Source: Oerskovia enterophila (lineage in GTDB: Bacteria; Actinomycetota; Actinomycetes; Actinomycetales; Cellulomonadaceae). Taken from it: a DNA stretch of 38,018 nt. A program made the translations under genes and the position numbers. The stretch's first letter is position 1; each line of letters starts with the position of its first letter. This document shows positions 15,301 through 37,695 of this stretch, in pieces. The stretch lies in NCBI RefSeq assembly GCF_001692445.1, contig NZ_MAQA01000046.1, positions 1 to 38,018 of the forward strand, in the 5' to 3' direction. A model generated the notes under the pieces. The model was not told the origin of the DNA and made no database searches. It saw only the letters and a program-made list of their open reading frames with translations.

Positions 15301-18300
15301 AGGTGATCGTGTCACCGCCGCGGACGGTGGTCCCCGACGCCGGGTCCGACGTCTTGGTCAGGGCGAACCCGGGGGTCGGGTGCTGGGTCTCGACCGGGGG
15401 CGGGACGATCGGCGGCCCCGTGGGCGGCGTGGCGGTGCCTGTCGCGACGTTGTGCAGGACCGATCCTGCCGGGGCGTCGGTGTCGACCGTGACGGTGTAC
15501 TGGATGACGACCTGCTGGCCGAGGTTCAGCACGCCCTCCCACCGGAGCGTCGTCCCGGTGAGCTCCGGCACGACGCCGATGTTCGAGGTGATCGACCCGG
15601 GGACCAGGTCGGCATGATCGAGCACGGCCGCCAGGTCGTCCGTGACGACGACGGGGTCCAGGACCGTGGCACCGGTGTTCGTGCCGCGCAGCGTGTAGGT
15701 GACGGTGTCACCGGGAGACACCGTGGTCCCGGACACCGGGTCCGAGCTCTTCTCGAGCGTGAAGCCGGGCACCCTGTGCTCGGTCACGACCGGCGGAGGG
15801 ACGATCGGCGGTCCTGTGGGCGGCTGGCCGGAGCCCGTCACGGTGTTCTGCACGATCGTTCCCGCGGCGACGTCGAGGTCGACGATCACCTGGTAGCCGA
15901 CCGTGACCTTCTGGCCCGGGGCGAGCGCGCCGGTCCACGTGAGCGTGGTCCCGTCCAGCACGGGGAGGTCGCCGGCCGTGGACGTGATCGAGGCGGGGAC
16001 GAGGGTCGCGTGCCCGAGCACGGCCGAGAGGTCGTCGGTGAGGGTCGCGGGGTCAAGCGTCGTCGCCCCCGTGTTCTCCCCGGTGAGGGTGTAGGTGATG
16101 GACTCGCCGCCCCGGATCGTCGACCCGGCGGTCGGCTCCGAGGACTTGGAGATCACGAAGCCGGGGATCGGGTGCTCGGTCTCGACCGCCGGAGGGGTCA
16201 GCGGCGGACCGGTCGGCGGGGTCGCGGAGCCGTCGGCCACGTTGTGCAGGAGAGTCCCGGCCGGCGCGTCGGCATCGACCCGCACCGCGTACGTGAGGAC
16301 GACCGACTCGCCGGGCTGCAGCGTCCCGGTCCAGGTCAGGGTCGTCCCCGAGACCTCGGGTGCCGTACCCAGCGAGGCGCTGGGGGTTCCCTCGACCGCA
16401 GCGCGGTCCAGGACCGCGGACAGGTCGTCGGTGATCTCGACGGGATCCAGGACGGTGTCGCCGGTGTTGGTGCCGGTCACGGTGTACGTGACGAGGTCAC
16501 CGGCCGCGACCCTGCTGCCCGACGCGGGGTCGGAGCTCTTCGTCAGAGCGAACCCCGGGACGGGGTGCTGGGTCTCGACGGCCGGCGGGGTGATCGGGGG
16601 CCCGGTCGGAGGCTGGGCGGTGCCGGTCACGACGTTGTGGAGCAGACCGCCCGTGAGGCCGTCGGCGACCGTGACGGCGTAGGTCAGGACGACCTCCTGG
16701 CCGACGTCGAGCGCACCGGTCCAGGTGAGCGTGGTGCCGCTGAGGACCGGGGCTGCGACGGCCGCGCCGTCGACCTCGGCCGTGACGGCGCCGAGGCTCC
16801 CGAGCGGGAGGACCCGGCCGAGGTCGTCCGAGAGGACGACCGGGTCCAGACGGGTCGCCCCCGTGTTGGTGCCCGTGACCGTGTAGGTGATGGTGTCGCC
16901 CGGTCGGACGTCGGTCCCGGACGCGGGGTCCGCGGTCTTGGAGACCTCGAAGCCCGGGATCGGGTGGGTCGTCACGACGGGCGGCGGCGTGATCGCCGGC
17001 CCCGTCGGGGGCTGGGCGGTCGAGGTCGCGCTGTTGTCGAGGGTCTCGCCCTGGGTGCCGGCATCGACTGTGACCCGGTAGCTGACGACGACCGTCTGTC
17101 CTTCGGCCAGGTCGCCGGTCCAGCTGAACGAAGAGCCGACCAGCGCCAGCGGCACGGGGGCTCCCCCGTCGATCGACGCCGCGAGCGAGCCGGCGACGTA
17201 GGTCGCGTCGTCGAGCACGTCGGCGAGGTCGTCGGCGATCGTCACGGTCAGCGGGGTGTCGCCGCTGTTGCGACCCGTGAGGGAGTACGTGACGGTGTCG
17301 CCGGGCTGCACCGAGGATCCCGAGACCGGGTCGGCGGTCTTGGTGAACTGGTAGCCGGGGACGTCGTGCACCGTGGTGCCGCAGGTGCCCGGCTCGCACG
17401 TCGTCGGAGGGTTCGGCGGCTCGGGGGGCGTGTGCGTGAACGCCACGTTGCGCAGCTCGCCGTCGCCGCTCCCGACGGCCTTGACCGTCGCCGTGTAGGT
17501 GGTCGCGACCGACGTCGTCGACAGCGGGATGTCGGTGCCCGTCCAGGTCCAGGCGTCCCCCGTGACCGTCGTCGAGCTGCCCGAGGCAGGCGCGGACACG
17601 AGGTCGTCGAGCGGCACGTCGGCGTCGTCACGGACCGAGCTCACCGAGTCGGAGTAGCGCCCCGACCACGTCGTCGCCTCGAGGGCGTCGGTGACCTCCT
17701 CCGGGTGGGCGTAGTCGACCGGGCTGGTCGTGACGGTGTAGCGGATCTCGTCCCCGGGGTTGACGATCGAGCCCGTCGCGGGGTCCGAGGACTTGGCGAG
17801 CAGGAAGCCGGGGTGGTCGGAGGTCGTGGTGATCGCGGTGTCGGCGTAGGCCCAGTTGTCGATCGCGCGGTTGTTGCCCCAGGTGCCGCCGTTCGTGGTG
17901 TCCGTGGGAGGCGGGTTGATCCCGAAGATGGTGTTGGTCGGGCAGGTGCCGACGCCCCAGGCGTGGACGCCCGCGCTGCTCGGGAGACCGCCGAGCGCCT
18001 GGACGACGGGCGTCGTCGAGCACCGGACGTTCGCGCGCGGGTCGTTCTGCACGTCGGTGACGGGCGTGTCGTTCCAGAAGAGCCGGACGTCGTTCTGCGG
18101 GGGGCCGTTGATGCGGTTGACCGCGATGCCCCCGTTGAAGATCTCGATGTCCTCGTCGACGAAGTGGATCTCTCCCACGCGGTCGATCTCCACCCGGAAC
18201 GCCAGGGGTCTGCTCGTGGGGATCACGGCACCCGAGGCGTCGAGGCCGTCGAAGGCGACGGACTGCGGCGCGTCGAGCGCCGCGACGGGGAACACCCGGT

Positions 18301-33462: not shown

Positions 33463-34848
33463 CTACGAGTCCGTCGGCACCACCGCACAGCCCGCGAGGT
33501 CGAGCGCGACCCGGACCCGCCCCCCCGGTGCGGGGGCGAACGAGTGGTGCGTGGCGCCGTCGGGCACGGGTGTCGCCGACGGCATGCCGAGCGCGACCAC
33601 GCGCTGCGGGCCGGCTCCCAGGTCGACGTCGACCGTGACCTCGGTGCGCCCACGCCGGAAGGCGCTGCGGACGACCGTGCCGTTTGCGGACCATGCCCCG
33701 GATTTGTTGTCAGAACTACGCCGGTCCGTACCCCGGCCACCTTCTGACAACTCATCCGTGGCGTGGGCACCGGGGACGAGCACGAGCCCCGTCGGGCCGA
33801 TCGCGAGCAGCTCGCCGCCCGCCGCCGAGAAGTTGTCAGAACCACCCCGGGGCATACCCCGGCCACGTTCTGACAACGGATCCGTGGCGAGAGACCTGTC
33901 AGAACCACCCCGGGGCACACCCCGGCCACGTTCTGACAACCGATCAGCCGCTTCGAAGTCCGCTTCGAAGTCCGCCGCAGAGTCTCCCAGCGACCGCGAC
34001 GACCCCGCCGACCCCAGCGCCACGAACGCCTGGTACCCGAGGAACTCCGCGACCCGCCGCGAAGCGGGCGCGCGCCACAGGTCCTCGGGAGCCGCGACCT
34101 GGAGCAGCCGCCCGGCGTCCATGACGGCCACGCGGTCGGCCACGGTGAAAGCCTCGTCGTGGTCGTGCGTCACGAACAGCGCGGTGGTCCCGGTCGCGAC
34201 GAGCGCCGCGCGCAGGTCGGCTGCGAGCCGGTCGCGCAGCCCCCGGTCGAGCGCCGACAACGGCTCGTCGAGCAGGAGGAGCTGCGGCTCGGGCGCCAGG
34301 GCGCGCGCGAGCGCGACGCGCTGGCGCTCGCCACCGCTCAGCGTCGCGACGGGCCGCTGCGCGTACCCGGCGAGCCCGACGACGTCGAGCAGCTCGGCCA
34401 CCCTGCCCGCGGCCGCGGACCGCTTGACGCCCGCCATCTGGAGGCCGAACGCCACGTTCCCCGCGACGTCCCGGTGCGGGAAGAGCTGCCCCTCCTGGAA
34501 CATGAGCCCGAACCCACGTCGGTGCACGGGGACACCCGCGAGGTCGCGCCCGTCCCACGTGATGCTCCCGCCCGCGACGGGCTCGAGCCCCGCGACGGCG
34601 CGCAGGAGGCTCGACTTGCCGCAGCCGCTCGGCCCCAGCAGGGCGAGCACCTCGCCCGGCGCGAGGTCGAGTCCCACACCGCGCACGGCCGTCGTCCCGG
34701 GCCCCTTGGAGGATGCCGGGTCGGGGTAGTGCACGACGACGTCGAGCACCGTGAGGCCTCGGCTCGCCGTGCTCCCGGTCGGGTCGTGCGGCACGTACGG
34801 CTCAGCCGAGCCGTCCGTCGTTCGCTCCACCACCGTGGCTCCGTCCAT
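33463..34848 (-). CDS. thiQ: Thiamine-type ABC transporter ATP-binding protein with palindromic insertions
   Basis: ATPase of the thiamine-type importer, 461 residues, twice the length of typical ThiQ (about 230). The ABC domain (about 32-270) is intact: Walker A GPSGCGKS at 72-79, LSGGERQR from 170, Walker B LLLLDEP near 190-196, and switch His in VTHDHDE near 228. Beyond residue 270 comes a TOBE-like C-terminal domain (about 344-461), interrupted and preceded by three in-frame 46-nt palindromic elements that encode LSERGRGVPRGGSD, LSERGRGMPRGGSD and LSEGGRGTDRRSSD (near 304, 325 and 367). A 12-nt direct repeat also gives ADFEADFEA (near 292-300). The start overlaps the permease stop by one base (TGATG). 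Thiamine as substrate comes from the operon context and riboswitch. Confidence 0.85.
   Translation of the reverse strand: MDGATVVERTTDGSAEPYVPHDPTGSTASRGLTVLDVVVHYPDPASSKGPGTTAVRGVGLDLAPGEVLALLGPSGCGKSSLLRAVAGLEPVAGGSITWDGRDLAGVPVHRRGFGLMFQEGQLFPHRDVAGNVAFGLQMAGVKRSAAAGRVAELLDVVGLAGYAQRPVATLSGGERQRVALARALAPEPQLLLLDEPLSALDRGLRDRLAADLRAALVATGTTALFVTHDHDEAFTVADRVAVMDAGRLLQVAAPEDLWRAPASRRVAEFLGYQAFVALGSAGSSRSLGDSAADFEADFEAADRLSERGRGVPRGGSDRSLATDPLSERGRGMPRGGSDNFSAAGGELLAIGPTGLVLVPGAHATDELSEGGRGTDRRSSDNKSGAWSANGTVVRSAFRRGRTEVTVDVDLGAGPQRVVALGMPSATPVPDGATHHSFAPAPGGRVRVALDLAGCAVVPTDS
33706..33751. repeat. 46-nt palindromic element, copy A (inside thiQ-like gene)
   Basis: Outer arms GTTGTCAGAA (33706-33715) and TTCTGACAAC (33742-33751), 10 bp; the inner GC stem is degenerate (CCGG). 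It is the most diverged of the three copies and encodes LSEGGRGTDRRSSD on the minus strand. It lies 126 nt (42 codons) from copy B, so the frame is kept. Confidence 0.8.
33832..33877. repeat. 46-nt palindromic element, copy B (inside thiQ-like gene)
   Basis: Outer arms GTTGTCAGAAC (33832-33842) and GTTCTGACAAC (33867-33877), 11 bp; inner stem CCGGGG-CATA-CCCCGG (33847-33862), giving a two-step hairpin. It encodes LSERGRGMPRGGSD on the minus strand. This is the best-formed copy. Confidence 0.85.
33895..33940. repeat. 46-nt palindromic element, copy C (inside thiQ-like gene)
   Basis: Outer arms TGTCAGAAC (33897-33905) and GTTCTGACA (33930-33938), 9 bp; the inner stem has the same CCGGGG-CCCCGG pattern. 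It lies 63 nt (21 codons) from copy B and encodes LSERGRGVPRGGSD on the minus strand. Confidence 0.85.
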
Positions 34849-36551
34849 CAGAACTCTCCTGCCGAGCGGTCGCCGCGCAGGCGTTCCGCCACCATCATCA
34901 CCGTTGCCGTGAGGACCGCGAGGACGACGCTCGCGGCCAGTGCCATGCCGTAGTTCTCCGCCCCGGGCCGGCCGATGAGCCGGAAGATGACCACGGGGAG
35001 CGTGGCCGCGTCGGGCCGGGCCAGGAACGACGTCGCCCCGAACTCGCCGAGCGACACCGCGAACGCGAACCCGATCGCGAGGCCCAGCGACCGGGCCGCG
35101 ATGGGCCCGTCGACCGCGGCGAACACACGAGCGGGCGGCGCCCCGAGCGTCGCAGCGGCCTCGCGCAGCCGCGGGTCGATCGCGCGCAGCACGGGCAGCA
35201 CGGTCCTGACCACGAGCGGGATCGCGACGACCGCCTGCGCGACGGGCACGAGCAGCCCCGAGGTCCGCAGGTCCACGTCGAGGCCGAGCGGCTTGTCGAG
35301 CGTGATGAGGAACCCGAACCCGACGGTCACGGCCGAGACGCCGAGCGGGAGCATGAAGACCGAGTCGAGCGCACTGATCGCCCGTCGACCCGTGCGCGAC
35401 CGGGGCCGTCGCGAGACGACGAGCGCGACGAGCCCGCCGATCACGACCGCGATCAGCGTCGCGATCGCGGCGGTCCGCACCGAGTTGGCCGTGGCCTCCC
35501 ACACGGTCACGCTCAGGGCGTTGCGTCCGCCGGTCGTGCCGAGGTTCGCGTAGTTCGCGAGGCTCCAGCCACCGGGGGTCTGGAACGAGCGCACGAGGAG
35601 GTTGACGAGCGGCAGGGCGATCAGGCCCAGCACGACGACGGCGGTCACCGCGAGCGGGACCGCGTCGGCCCGCAGGCGCAGCGGCCGGGCCGCGGACGTC
35701 GCCGCGGACAGGTTGAGCGCGCGCTCGCGCCGGGCGCGGGTCCTGTTGGCGACGCTCAGCGCGACCACCACGACGACGAGCTGCACGACCGAGAGCACCG
35801 CGGCCGCGCGCAGGTCGAGGAACTGGGTCGTCTGGATCCAGATCTCGGTCTCGATGGTCCCGTACTGGACACCGCCCAGGACGAGCACGACACCGAACGC
35901 CGTGGCGCAGAACAGGAACACGATCGACGCGGCCGACGCGATGGCCGGCGCCAGCGACGGCAGCGTCACGGACCGGAACGCTCGCCAGGGCGAGGCTCCC
36001 AGGGCGCGGGCCGCCTCCTCGGCGCGCGGGTCGAGGTGCTCCCAGAGCCCGCCGACGGTCCGGACCACGACCGAGTAGTTGAAGAAGACGAGGGCCAGGA
36101 CGATCGCCCCGAACGTCCCGTCGAGCCGCAGGAACCCGAGCAGCCCGCCCTCGACCAGCAGGGAGCGGAACGCCACCCCGACCACGACGGTCGGCAGCAC
36201 GAACGGCACGGTCACGAACGCCCGCAGGAACGTGCGCCCACGGAACCGGCACCGGTACAGCACGTACGCGCCGGGCACGCCGAGCAGCACCGAGATCACG
36301 GTCCCGAGCACGCCCTGCCACAGCGTCAGCCCGATGATCCGCCAGGTCCGCGGCTCGGAGAACACCTCGGCGAAGCCGGAGAGGTCCAAGGAGGCGCCGG
36401 CAGCGTCCTGGGTCACGAACCCGCGCGCGATCAGCGTCACGACGGGCCACGCGAAGAACACCCCGAGGAACAGCAGCGGCAGCCCGGCGGCGAGCCCCCA
36501 CAGGAGGACCCGCCCGCCGCGCTGCACGGCCGCGGGCACGCCGCGGCTCAC
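34848..36551 (-). CDS. thiP: Thiamine-type ABC transporter permease (ThiP-like, two-domain)
   Basis: A 567-residue inner-membrane permease with about twelve helices in two fused BPD_transp_1 halves, as in ThiP and FbpB. The two EAA loops that contact the ATPase are visible: EEAARALGASPWRAF (near 180-195) and REAAATLGAPPARVF (near 465-480). The N-terminal helix is at about 15-38. The start is a GTG; only a weak GGGCGG precedes it, and it lies 88 bp after the thiB-like stop. The stop overlaps the ATPase start (TGATG). It imports thiamine, or related compounds, delivered by the binding lipoprotein. Confidence 0.88.
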   Translation of the reverse strand: MSRGVPAAVQRGGRVLLWGLAAGLPLLFLGVFFAWPVVTLIARGFVTQDAAGASLDLSGFAEVFSEPRTWRIIGLTLWQGVLGTVISVLLGVPGAYVLYRCRFRGRTFLRAFVTVPFVLPTVVVGVAFRSLLVEGGLLGFLRLDGTFGAIVLALVFFNYSVVVRTVGGLWEHLDPRAEEAARALGASPWRAFRSVTLPSLAPAIASAASIVFLFCATAFGVVLVLGGVQYGTIETEIWIQTTQFLDLRAAAVLSVVQLVVVVVALSVANRTRARRERALNLSAATSAARPLRLRADAVPLAVTAVVVLGLIALPLVNLLVRSFQTPGGWSLANYANLGTTGGRNALSVTVWEATANSVRTAAIATLIAVVIGGLVALVVSRRPRSRTGRRAISALDSVFMLPLGVSAVTVGFGFLITLDKPLGLDVDLRTSGLLVPVAQAVVAIPLVVRTVLPVLRAIDPRLREAAATLGAPPARVFAAVDGPIAARSLGLAIGFAFAVSLGEFGATSFLARPDAATLPVVIFRLIGRPGAENYGMALAASVVLAVLTATVMMVAERLRGDRSAGEF

Positions 36552-36639: not shown

Positions 36640-37695
36640 TCAGCCGATCACCGTCGACGTCCACGCCTTGATCCACTCGTCGCGGTGTGCCGTGATGTCG
36701 GCGGGGGCGACGTCGAACGGCTCCGGGGACAGGGGGGCGAACTCGACCCAGCCCTCGGGCAGCTCGGTGTCGGTGTTCACCGGGTACATGTACATGCTGT
36801 CGGCGATGTCGGCCTGGAACGCGTCGCTCACGAGGAAGTCGACGAGCTTCTTGGCGCCCTCGGGATTCGCTGCCCCGGCCAGCAGACCTACGTACTCGAC
36901 CTGGCGGAAGCAGGTGTCGAGCAGCGCGCCCGTCCGCGTCGAGCTCCCGTCCTCGGAGACCGTGAACGCGGGCGACGTCGAGTAGGACAGCACGATGGGG
37001 CGCGGGCCATTGCCCTCGGAGCCGGAGAAGTCGACGTAGTAGGCGTCGGACCAGCTGTCGGTGACCTTGACGCCGTTGGCCTTGAGCTTGCTCCAGTACT
37101 CCTCCCAGCCGTCCTCGCCGTAGGCGCCGACGGTCGCGAGCAGGAACGACAGCCCCGGCGACGACGTCGCGGGGTTGGTCACGACGAGCAGGTCCTTGTA
37201 CTCGGGCTTGGTCAGGTCGTCGAGCGTCACGGGCTCGGGGACCCCTGTGTTGCCGAACCAGGCGTGGTCGACGTTGACGCAGACGTCGCCGAAGTCGATC
37301 GGGGTGAGCTCGCCGTCCCCCACTGCGTACTGGGCCGCCGAGTCGGCTTGCCCCGCGGGCGCGTAGGGCTCGAGCACGCCCTCGTCGATCGCACGGGTCG
37401 CGAACGAGTTGTCGATGCCGAACACGACGTCGCCGAGCGGCGCGTCCTTGGTGAGGATGAGCTGGTTGACGAGCGAGCCGCCGTCACCGGGGGTGATCTG
37501 CTTGACGGTCAGCCCGGACTCCTTCTCGAACGCGGCGAGGACGTCCTCGCTCACGTTGAAGGAGTCGTGCGTGACGAGCGTGACGACGCTCGACGGGTCC
37601 GTGCCCGTGTCGGTCGTCCCGGCGCAGGCCGTGAGGGCCAGCGCGCTGAGCCCGCCGACGAGGCCGAGGCCGAGGCGGGTACTGATGGTGTTCAC
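36640..37695 (-). CDS. thiB: Thiamine-binding lipoprotein (ThiB-like)
   Basis: A 351-residue substrate-binding lipoprotein. The signal peptide ends at the lipobox LTAC with Cys24 as the lipid-anchored residue. The mature part matches the ThiB/iron-type binding fold: VTLVTHDSFNVSEDVL, then GDVVFGIDNSFATRA, DVCVNVDHAWF, PATSSPGLSFLLATV and VLSYSTSPAF. The GTG start at 37695 is decided by AGGAGG about six bases upstream; the frame is open to 37878 but that stretch is the riboswitch. It is the first gene of the importer operon, under TPP control. Thiamine is most likely, although a phosphate ester or a precursor cannot be excluded. Confidence 0.9.
   Translation of the reverse strand: MNTISTRLGLGLVGGLSALALTACAGTTDTGTDPSSVVTLVTHDSFNVSEDVLAAFEKESGLTVKQITPGDGGSLVNQLILTKDAPLGDVVFGIDNSFATRAIDEGVLEPYAPAGQADSAAQYAVGDGELTPIDFGDVCVNVDHAWFGNTGVPEPVTLDDLTKPEYKDLLVVTNPATSSPGLSFLLATVGAYGEDGWEEYWSKLKANGVKVTDSWSDAYYVDFSGSEGNGPRPIVLSYSTSPAFTVSEDGSSTRTGALLDTCFRQVEYVGLLAGAANPEGAKKLVDFLVSDAFQADIADSMYMYPVNTDTELPEGWVEFAPLSPEPFDVAPADITAHRDEWIKAWTSTVIG

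Follow-up and report, generated by a model that had tools for sequence, protein, structure and literature searches.

What three copies of one palindrome are doing inside a single protein-coding gene of Oerskovia enterophila, and what kind of element they belong to, is the question raised by this locus. The window (the whole stretch of DNA analysed, 38,018 nt) corresponds to contig C46 of a draft genome of 4.65 Mb, which we refer to as the own genome or G000; further genomes, contigs and loci are denoted by G, C and L numbers.

Three palindromes within one ABC ATPase gene

The original prediction placed three palindromes in one intact ABC ATPase gene. This was confirmed, with cores starting at 33708, 33834 and 33897, all within one intact minus-strand ORF (33463-34848), while shuffled sequence gave a mean of 0 matches (100 shuffles). 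The copies and the operon at which they are found are as follows.

33708..33749, minus strand: element copy A, 42-nt core (33706-33751 with the outer GT/AC), in frame, peptide LSEGGRGTDRRSSD
33834..33875, minus strand: element copy B, 42-nt core (33832-33877 with the outer GT/AC), peptide LSERGRGMPRGGSD
33897..33938, minus strand: element copy C, 42-nt core, 63 nt from B, peptide LSERGRGVPRGGSD
33695..33763, strand not assigned: copy A with the longer symmetric flank (GAYNNGT...ACNNRTC and beyond) that is common in own-genome copies
33463..34848, minus strand: host gene for a ThiQ-like ABC-transporter ATP-binding protein of 461 aa, to which the three elements add peptide
34848..36551, minus strand: two-domain ABC permease (ThiP-like, under NCBIfam cut-offs), host operon
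36640..37695, minus strand: thiamine-type substrate-binding protein, host operon, passes the NCBIfam TIGR01254 cut-off

The spacing given for the copies, 126 and 63 nt, proved right when measured start to start. The 11-nt arms GTTGTCAGAAC/GTTCTGACAAC, expected in all copies, are complete in B, whereas one arm base is changed in A and one outer end differs in C. A near-identical peptide had also been described for each copy; however, that of A is only loosely like those of C and B. In a Pfam profile search, PF00005 matched residues 56-197 of the 461-aa host protein, and the element peptides start at about residues 303, 324 and 366, all past the ATPase domain. A location between the ABC and C-terminal domains holds for B and C, but copy A lies within the C-terminal part, with conserved blocks on either side.

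The operon order is ABC ATPase, two-domain permease and substrate-binding protein, and the gene had been assigned to a thiamine transporter. The binding protein scored 253.9 bits against the NCBIfam "thiamine ABC transporter substrate-binding protein" subfamily (cut-off 93.4), but the host ATPase reached 147.4 bits against NCBIfam thiQ, under the cut-off of 245.05. Thus, judging from profile scores, a thiamine-transporter ATPase is likely but not proven. The best relatives of the host protein that carry names are from Oerskovia (O. merdavium 92% and O. douganii 86%, best segment). A comparison with known RNA families gave one match only at the element site, at chance level.

The 61-64 nt spacing, as seen between B and C, recurs in several other genomes. 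Copies B and C are possibly a local duplicate. Spacers within a tandem array at own-genome contig C49 resemble each other, and those of the complete genome G002 appear unrelated by eye.

A dispersed family of near-fixed length

The element had been expected to be dispersed elsewhere in the genome, and it is. The family pattern is TGTCAGAA-N26-TTCTGACA, 42 nt long. A search of the own genome for exact TGTCAGAA/TTCTGACA arms, with total lengths of 30-60 nt permitted, returned 42 sites, each exactly 42 nt, and 0 for the reversed control. By 7-nt arms the own genome has 58 copies, and 43 of these are intergenic, as anticipated. Near-fixed length was directly observed in a wider set of 181 fetched loci (1.09 Mb with some overlap, each distinct context entering the count once), in which 181 of 187 distinct 7-nt-arm pairs lying 20-90 nt apart were exactly 42 nt, the others being 41 (1), 61 (3) and 80 nt (2), with 0 in the control; most of these loci had been picked as element carriers, some through a pattern fixed at 42 and others through length-permissive patterns.

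At least one match to the 7-nt arms was detected in 50 of 200 same-family genomes, from 17 of 25 genera, and none in the other 150. Copy number ranged from 0 to 200 (G104 200, G079 108, G002 88), and control matches appeared in two of the 200 genomes, one apiece. Minority match lengths were 28, 39, 40, 41 and 43 in the 200-genome list, and 33, 38, 50 and 51 among its loci. Within Oerskovia itself, exact-arm copies are scarce (2-8) in 4 of 7 genomes.

The tips are shared between genomes, while the inner 26 nt follow a theme specific to each genome: CCGGGGTA in G000, CGAGCGTGACC in G002 and GGTGGGC in G144. Conservation in G000 extends outward (GAYNNGT-core-ACNNRTC and beyond) to about 56-68 nt in all; in G002 it almost ends at the core, the flank consensus being nearly nil, and in G144 just two bases outside the core are clearly biased. 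Relatives of 43 nt occur in G096 and G099, the former with a recurring asymmetric centre around CTAAGTG, which suggests a wider superfamily. In viral contigs the 42-nt pattern and a 39-nt control pattern each matched 11 stretches; as there was no excess over the control, a viral vehicle for the element was dropped.

There is also a second family of dispersed palindromes, 57 nt (19 codons) long and with arms CGAGATGCGGCC.../...GGCCGCATCTCG; it was encountered at L129:7388-7444 (G000 C8), L121:2152-2209 and L131:2024-2085, with dispersed matches in 6 of 6 Oerskovia relatives searched. One of its copies shares the flavoprotein ORF with the TGTCAGA element studied here. Its 12-nt tip is absent from the window.

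Facing half-sites and helical phasing

Arm covariation was measured against arms shuffled among copies, in sets gathered with a minimum self-complementarity, a bias that works against a half-site reading. None was seen in G000 (54 distinct copies, z -0.5), G002 (45, z -0.6) or G144 (50, z 0.3); in G056 (16 copies, z 4.6) it was present and may reflect subfamilies. Since the arms do not change together in three of the four genomes tested, the palindrome is probably, for the most part, two facing copies of one half-site motif and not a maintained hairpin.

Among neighbouring copies less than 130 nt apart, 25 of 36 pairs were at 61-64 nt. The other 11 (54 to 126 nt) were in phase with the 10.5-bp turn (P 0.0006 vs random spacing) in a post hoc test, run once the spacings had been noticed, for which 13 periods were tried (10.25 was strongest, then 10 and 10.5), 2 of 38 spacings, both from one tandem array, were excluded, and the in-gene pairs were constrained to multiples of three. 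This phasing, together with the 42-bp length (four turns), suggests that the element is recognised as double-stranded DNA on one helix face.

Copies inside genes share one reading frame

Copies were called in-gene or intergenic by a purpose-written codon-usage gene finder. In the fetched loci of the own genome, 13 of 58 copies are in genes, 43 are intergenic and 2 are at called gene starts; the corresponding counts are 6 in genes, 28 intergenic and 2 partial for the 36 copies of G002, and 24, 77 and 4 for 105 copies in loci of 25 genomes, a set which repeats one or two intergenic G002 copies of the earlier count. The in-gene share is about 20% in each set. As coding sequence occupies most of such genomes, a share of about one fifth implies that insertions into genes are heavily purged. 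Divergent spacers hold 1 of 35 intergenic copies in G000 (both neighbours called), where 23 of 99 spacers are divergent, and 3 of 27 in G002, where 13 of 59 are.

All 43 copies lying wholly in genes (13/13, 6/6 and 24/24; 29 genes, 11 genomes) are read in frame c, which gives LSE...SD (x-S-E/D...S-D). Across five genomes, frame b contains a stop throughout, whereas 81-100% of copies and orientations leave frame a (C-Q...L-T) open and 47-100% leave frame c open, the lowest value for frame c being that of G002. If the open frames were equally likely, such single-frame use over 29 genes in 11 genomes would have P ~4e-11, a value which treats genes as independent (the molybdopterin oxidoreductase orthologues of G000 and G002 are both counted) and uses 0.5 for six genes from genomes without measured frame openness. 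Selection on linkers is the simplest cause, since frame c gives the more hydrophilic peptide in each of the five genomes measured; a frame-dependent insertion preference is conceivable as well.

Eight further copies overlap genes partially; 4 genes end at core position 17, again in frame c, and the other 4 overlap at the called gene start only. At L240:1557, L249:423, L108:1526 and L153:1526 the called stop is at core position 17, so that the element itself supplies the stop codon, in frame c.

The 13 own-genome in-gene copies are carried by 8 genes, encoding the ABC ATPase, two histidine kinases, a uroporphyrinogen-III synthase, a nitrite-reductase-like flavoprotein, a molybdopterin oxidoreductase, a CoA transferase and a peptide synthetase module. 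Twelve of them lie outside the best Pfam stretches shown and 1 lies inside HemD, a placement which rests on best stretches, second stretches of some families not being shown. The copy in kinase L116 is 11 residues past a partial HATPase match and may be inside the HATPase domain.

Orthologous sites and turnover of the inner motif

A 3.1-kb core region splits G000, G001 and G003 from G002, G004, G005 and G006. Across this split, G000 and G002 share five sites that hold the element, namely a molybdopterin oxidoreductase linker, a flavoprotein start, the intergenic site L128:9656, the N terminus of a biotin carboxylase, and a spacer ~20 nt beyond an esterase gene. Every copy at these sites fits the matrix of its own genome (17 to 39 bits) and only poorly that of the other (-40 to +4). 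Three of the five pairs keep site-specific identity (17/26, 18/26 and 13/26; P 0.001, <0.001 and 0.045), and in the other two no residual identity above unrelated pairs was found (P 0.41 and 0.93). Because each shared copy fits its own genome's motif and three pairs keep site-specific identity, these sites seem, from the alignments, to be old insertions whose inner motif has been renewed genome by genome, in place. Independent reinsertion is also conceivable, chiefly at the two sites whose pairs lack residual identity.

At L128:9656, G000 carries its own-genome version with its own flanks, and G001 and G003, although of the clade of G000, carry a decayed copy (mutually identical there) that is nearer to the G002 version. 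Presence and absence at orthologous sites were observed directly: decayed copies occur in G004, G005 and G001/G003, and empty sites in relatives too. The host ATPase gene follows the same pattern, as O. turbata has its own version twice, at the same linkers, O. rustica has two diverged copies without exact arms, and O. merdavium, O. douganii and O. flava have no recognisable element. No single peptide is therefore common to these orthologues, in keeping with the inserted peptides of the original prediction. Comparisons at ~80-96% flank identity, which blurs the exact insertion boundaries, give length differences of about 38 to 68 nt or more between filled and empty sites, and no clean 42.

Several single sites are worth recording. 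In G005, the orthologue of L128:9656 has a third, different palindrome (GGCCGTCGGACGC...GCGTCCGACGGCC) in place of the TGTCAGA element of other species. At L119 ~15450-15600 (G000 C43), a ~28-nt direct repeat (CCCGACGGCGGAGCGCACCAC...) is found either side of the element at 15506, and G002 has one repeat copy and no element; in this single case the repeat may have been duplicated by the insertion or in a purely local event. At the biotin carboxylase start, L101 (G003) has a full element with a second half-element in tandem, and L130 (G000) has an apparent fusion of the two.

How the element may have spread

Our best explanation as a whole, to which we give a probability of about 0.6, is that Oerskovia and its relatives carry a dispersed palindromic element, selfish in appearance, which is spread or homogenised by a half-site-binding protein. 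Its parts differ in strength. We are highly confident that this is a dispersed element tolerated in frame; the chances that a half-site-binding factor exists are about even; and active overwriting of old copies falls somewhat short of even.

The 42-bp core would consist of two inverted 21-bp half-sites, each with the conserved tip TGTCAGAA and a 13-bp inner part peculiar to the genome. A putative lineage-specific protein would recognise the copies as double-stranded DNA, each half-site on one helix face, and would spread the element and/or overwrite old copies, by which the copies would stay alike within each genome. Selection would remove most insertions into genes. The survivors would be found chiefly in linkers and at the ends of proteins, read in the hydrophilic frame xTG-TCA-GAA...TCT-GAC and each adding 14 residues or more, and in the host ATPase gene three insertions would have survived past the ATPase domain. 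Counting against this reading are the lack of an enzyme, of a recurrent neighbour gene and of an autonomous transposon in the regions and half-sites searched (below), the lack of adjacent target duplications, the length differences between filled and empty sites, the arm covariation of G056, the post hoc nature of the phasing test and the two shared sites at which identity is not retained.

A stronger form, a repeat class overwritten in place, is offered tentatively and is on the doubtful side. Here, the putative protein would sit on the two inverted 21-bp half-sites, on one face of the DNA, new copies would be placed at whole helical turns (42 = 4, 63 = 6) from existing ones, and old copies at inherited positions would be converted to the current genome motif. 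If true, dozens to hundreds of dispersed bacterial sites would evolve in concert, and some of these would serve also as single-frame protein linkers.

Alternative origins and known palindromic families

The palindromes might instead be host-useful DNA sites, which bind a fast-evolving host protein (a chromosome organiser or transcription factor) and are kept by selection, those in genes being tolerated. Such a role would suit the occupation of the same positions across species with a genome-specific motif, the helical phasing and near-fixed 42-bp length, and the avoidance of divergent (promoter) spacers in G000. We consider it unlikely, though, given the few exact-arm copies in 4/7 Oerskovia genomes, the decayed copies in G004, G005 and G001/G003, the 150/200 family genomes without an arm match and the copy number of 0-200, and the copies inside unrelated enzymes.

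It is rather improbable that the element is a TIR-only MITE, in which the terminal inverted repeats of an insertion sequence would abut each other and full-length copies of that sequence would be rare or lost. Among related insertion sequences, terminal repeats share conserved tips and vary further in, a look which the element matches, and its two half-sites are independent. MITEs also share with it the inverted repeats and a non-autonomous look, and some of their families are fused in frame to genes, according to PMC2229807. On the other hand, the Oerskovia element has no sequence between the repeats and no adjacent target duplication, direct repeats being at chance level in G000 (58 copies) and G002 (36); offset repeats exceeded chance in two classes among many tested (G000, offset 1, 3 nt, 5 vs 1.1; G002, offset 8, 4 nt, 3 vs 0.3). 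Neither an element-ended autonomous transposon nor an outward pair at transposon distance was present among the half-sites of G002 listed (~100 of 145), and no shared transposase was seen near copies in the regions examined. A recurrent neighbour gene was likewise absent from 20 regions of 8 genomes, in which the largest neighbour-protein cluster had 12 proteins from 4 genomes, 1 of them near an element; the largest cluster in another neighbour-gene comparison contained an ABC-type protein (by eye).

The dRS3 repeats of Neisseria are short, and their ends are conserved around a variable middle; the element may resemble them in this general description only, sequence and clade being different. 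dRS3 is placed among the CGTC-1 REPs (PMC3733652). REPs, in the same paper, are short palindromes with frequent doublets, mostly outside promoters and some in genes, and their CGTC class has no known transposase. The Oerskovia element is also a short dispersed palindrome with frequent doublets, some in genes, and it too avoids divergent spacers. That it belongs with the REPs, as a single-stranded hairpin mobilised by a RAYT (HUH/Y1) transposase, is nevertheless largely refuted and very improbable. Y1_Tnp (PF01797) was found in 0 of 18 genomes searched, element-rich ones included, while 5 of 14 control genomes were positive, and a Y1/RAYT driver was rejected for the genomes searched. Arm covariation is absent in 3/4 genomes, and there is no unpaired GTAG tag, the conserved ends being paired TGTCAGAA/TTCTGACA instead. 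An unpaired CGTC tag is missing as well: CGTC REPs have a CGTC/TGTC tag, an 8-9 bp stem and a 4-5 nt loop, whereas the TGTC of the Oerskovia element is within the paired arm of a 42-nt whole with 21-nt half-sites. The comparison covered the GTAG and CGTC classes; PMC3733652 also cites untagged REP-like families in M. tuberculosis, while the word Actinobacteria is absent from its text.

A protein-level repeat, in which the LSE...SD peptide is selected and duplicated with the DNA palindrome as by-product, would suit the one frame in 43/43 copies wholly in genes, but is refuted by the intergenic majority (43/58, 28/36 and 77/105); a frame c open in only 47% of G002 orientations and an inner peptide that differs among genomes also count against it, and it has hardly any chance left. 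DUF222/HNH (13E12-type) genes are multicopy in many actinobacteria, for which such a nuclease was considered as the spreading enzyme; with 0 matches to PF02720 in 7/7 Oerskovia genomes, three element-rich ones included, this driver was rejected for Oerskovia and its likelihood is negligible.

The dispersed element of our best explanation had been likened to the Rickettsia palindromic elements (RPEs). As described in PMC2229807, these are palindromic and dispersed, both intergenic and in frame within genes of unrelated function, and the protein tolerates them. The Oerskovia element is likewise mostly intergenic and in frame within unrelated genes, in one frame, and its host ORFs appear intact. 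However, RPEs are 105-146 bp long and belong to alphaproteobacteria, whereas the Oerskovia element has a 42-bp core (with a conserved flank to ~56-68 bp in G000) and belongs to high-GC actinobacteria; it further differs by its near-fixed length, genome-specific inner motif, single frame, doublets in helical phase, and what look like half-sites in place of a maintained hairpin. The likeness thus holds for behaviour and not for membership: the element acts like RPEs and is not a member of the RPE family.

Significance

No description of the Oerskovia family was found in the titles and abstracts of open-licence literature. The family behaves like RPEs and REPs, yet their length, tag and enzyme features are missing from it. 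Rickettsia and Wolbachia are the main known sources of palindromes inside protein genes. Enterobacterial repeats are reportedly another case (PMC2759123), and REPs inside genes have been reported too, in PMC3733652. Here, the host is a high-GC actinobacterium, of a genus with described species, and each genome may hold dozens of copies, so that several questions would become testable: how an element spreads without a known transposase, how proteins absorb such elements, and how dispersed copies remain alike. From the single frame, near-fixed length and helical spacing, precise expectations follow for a binding protein, which could be sought biochemically.
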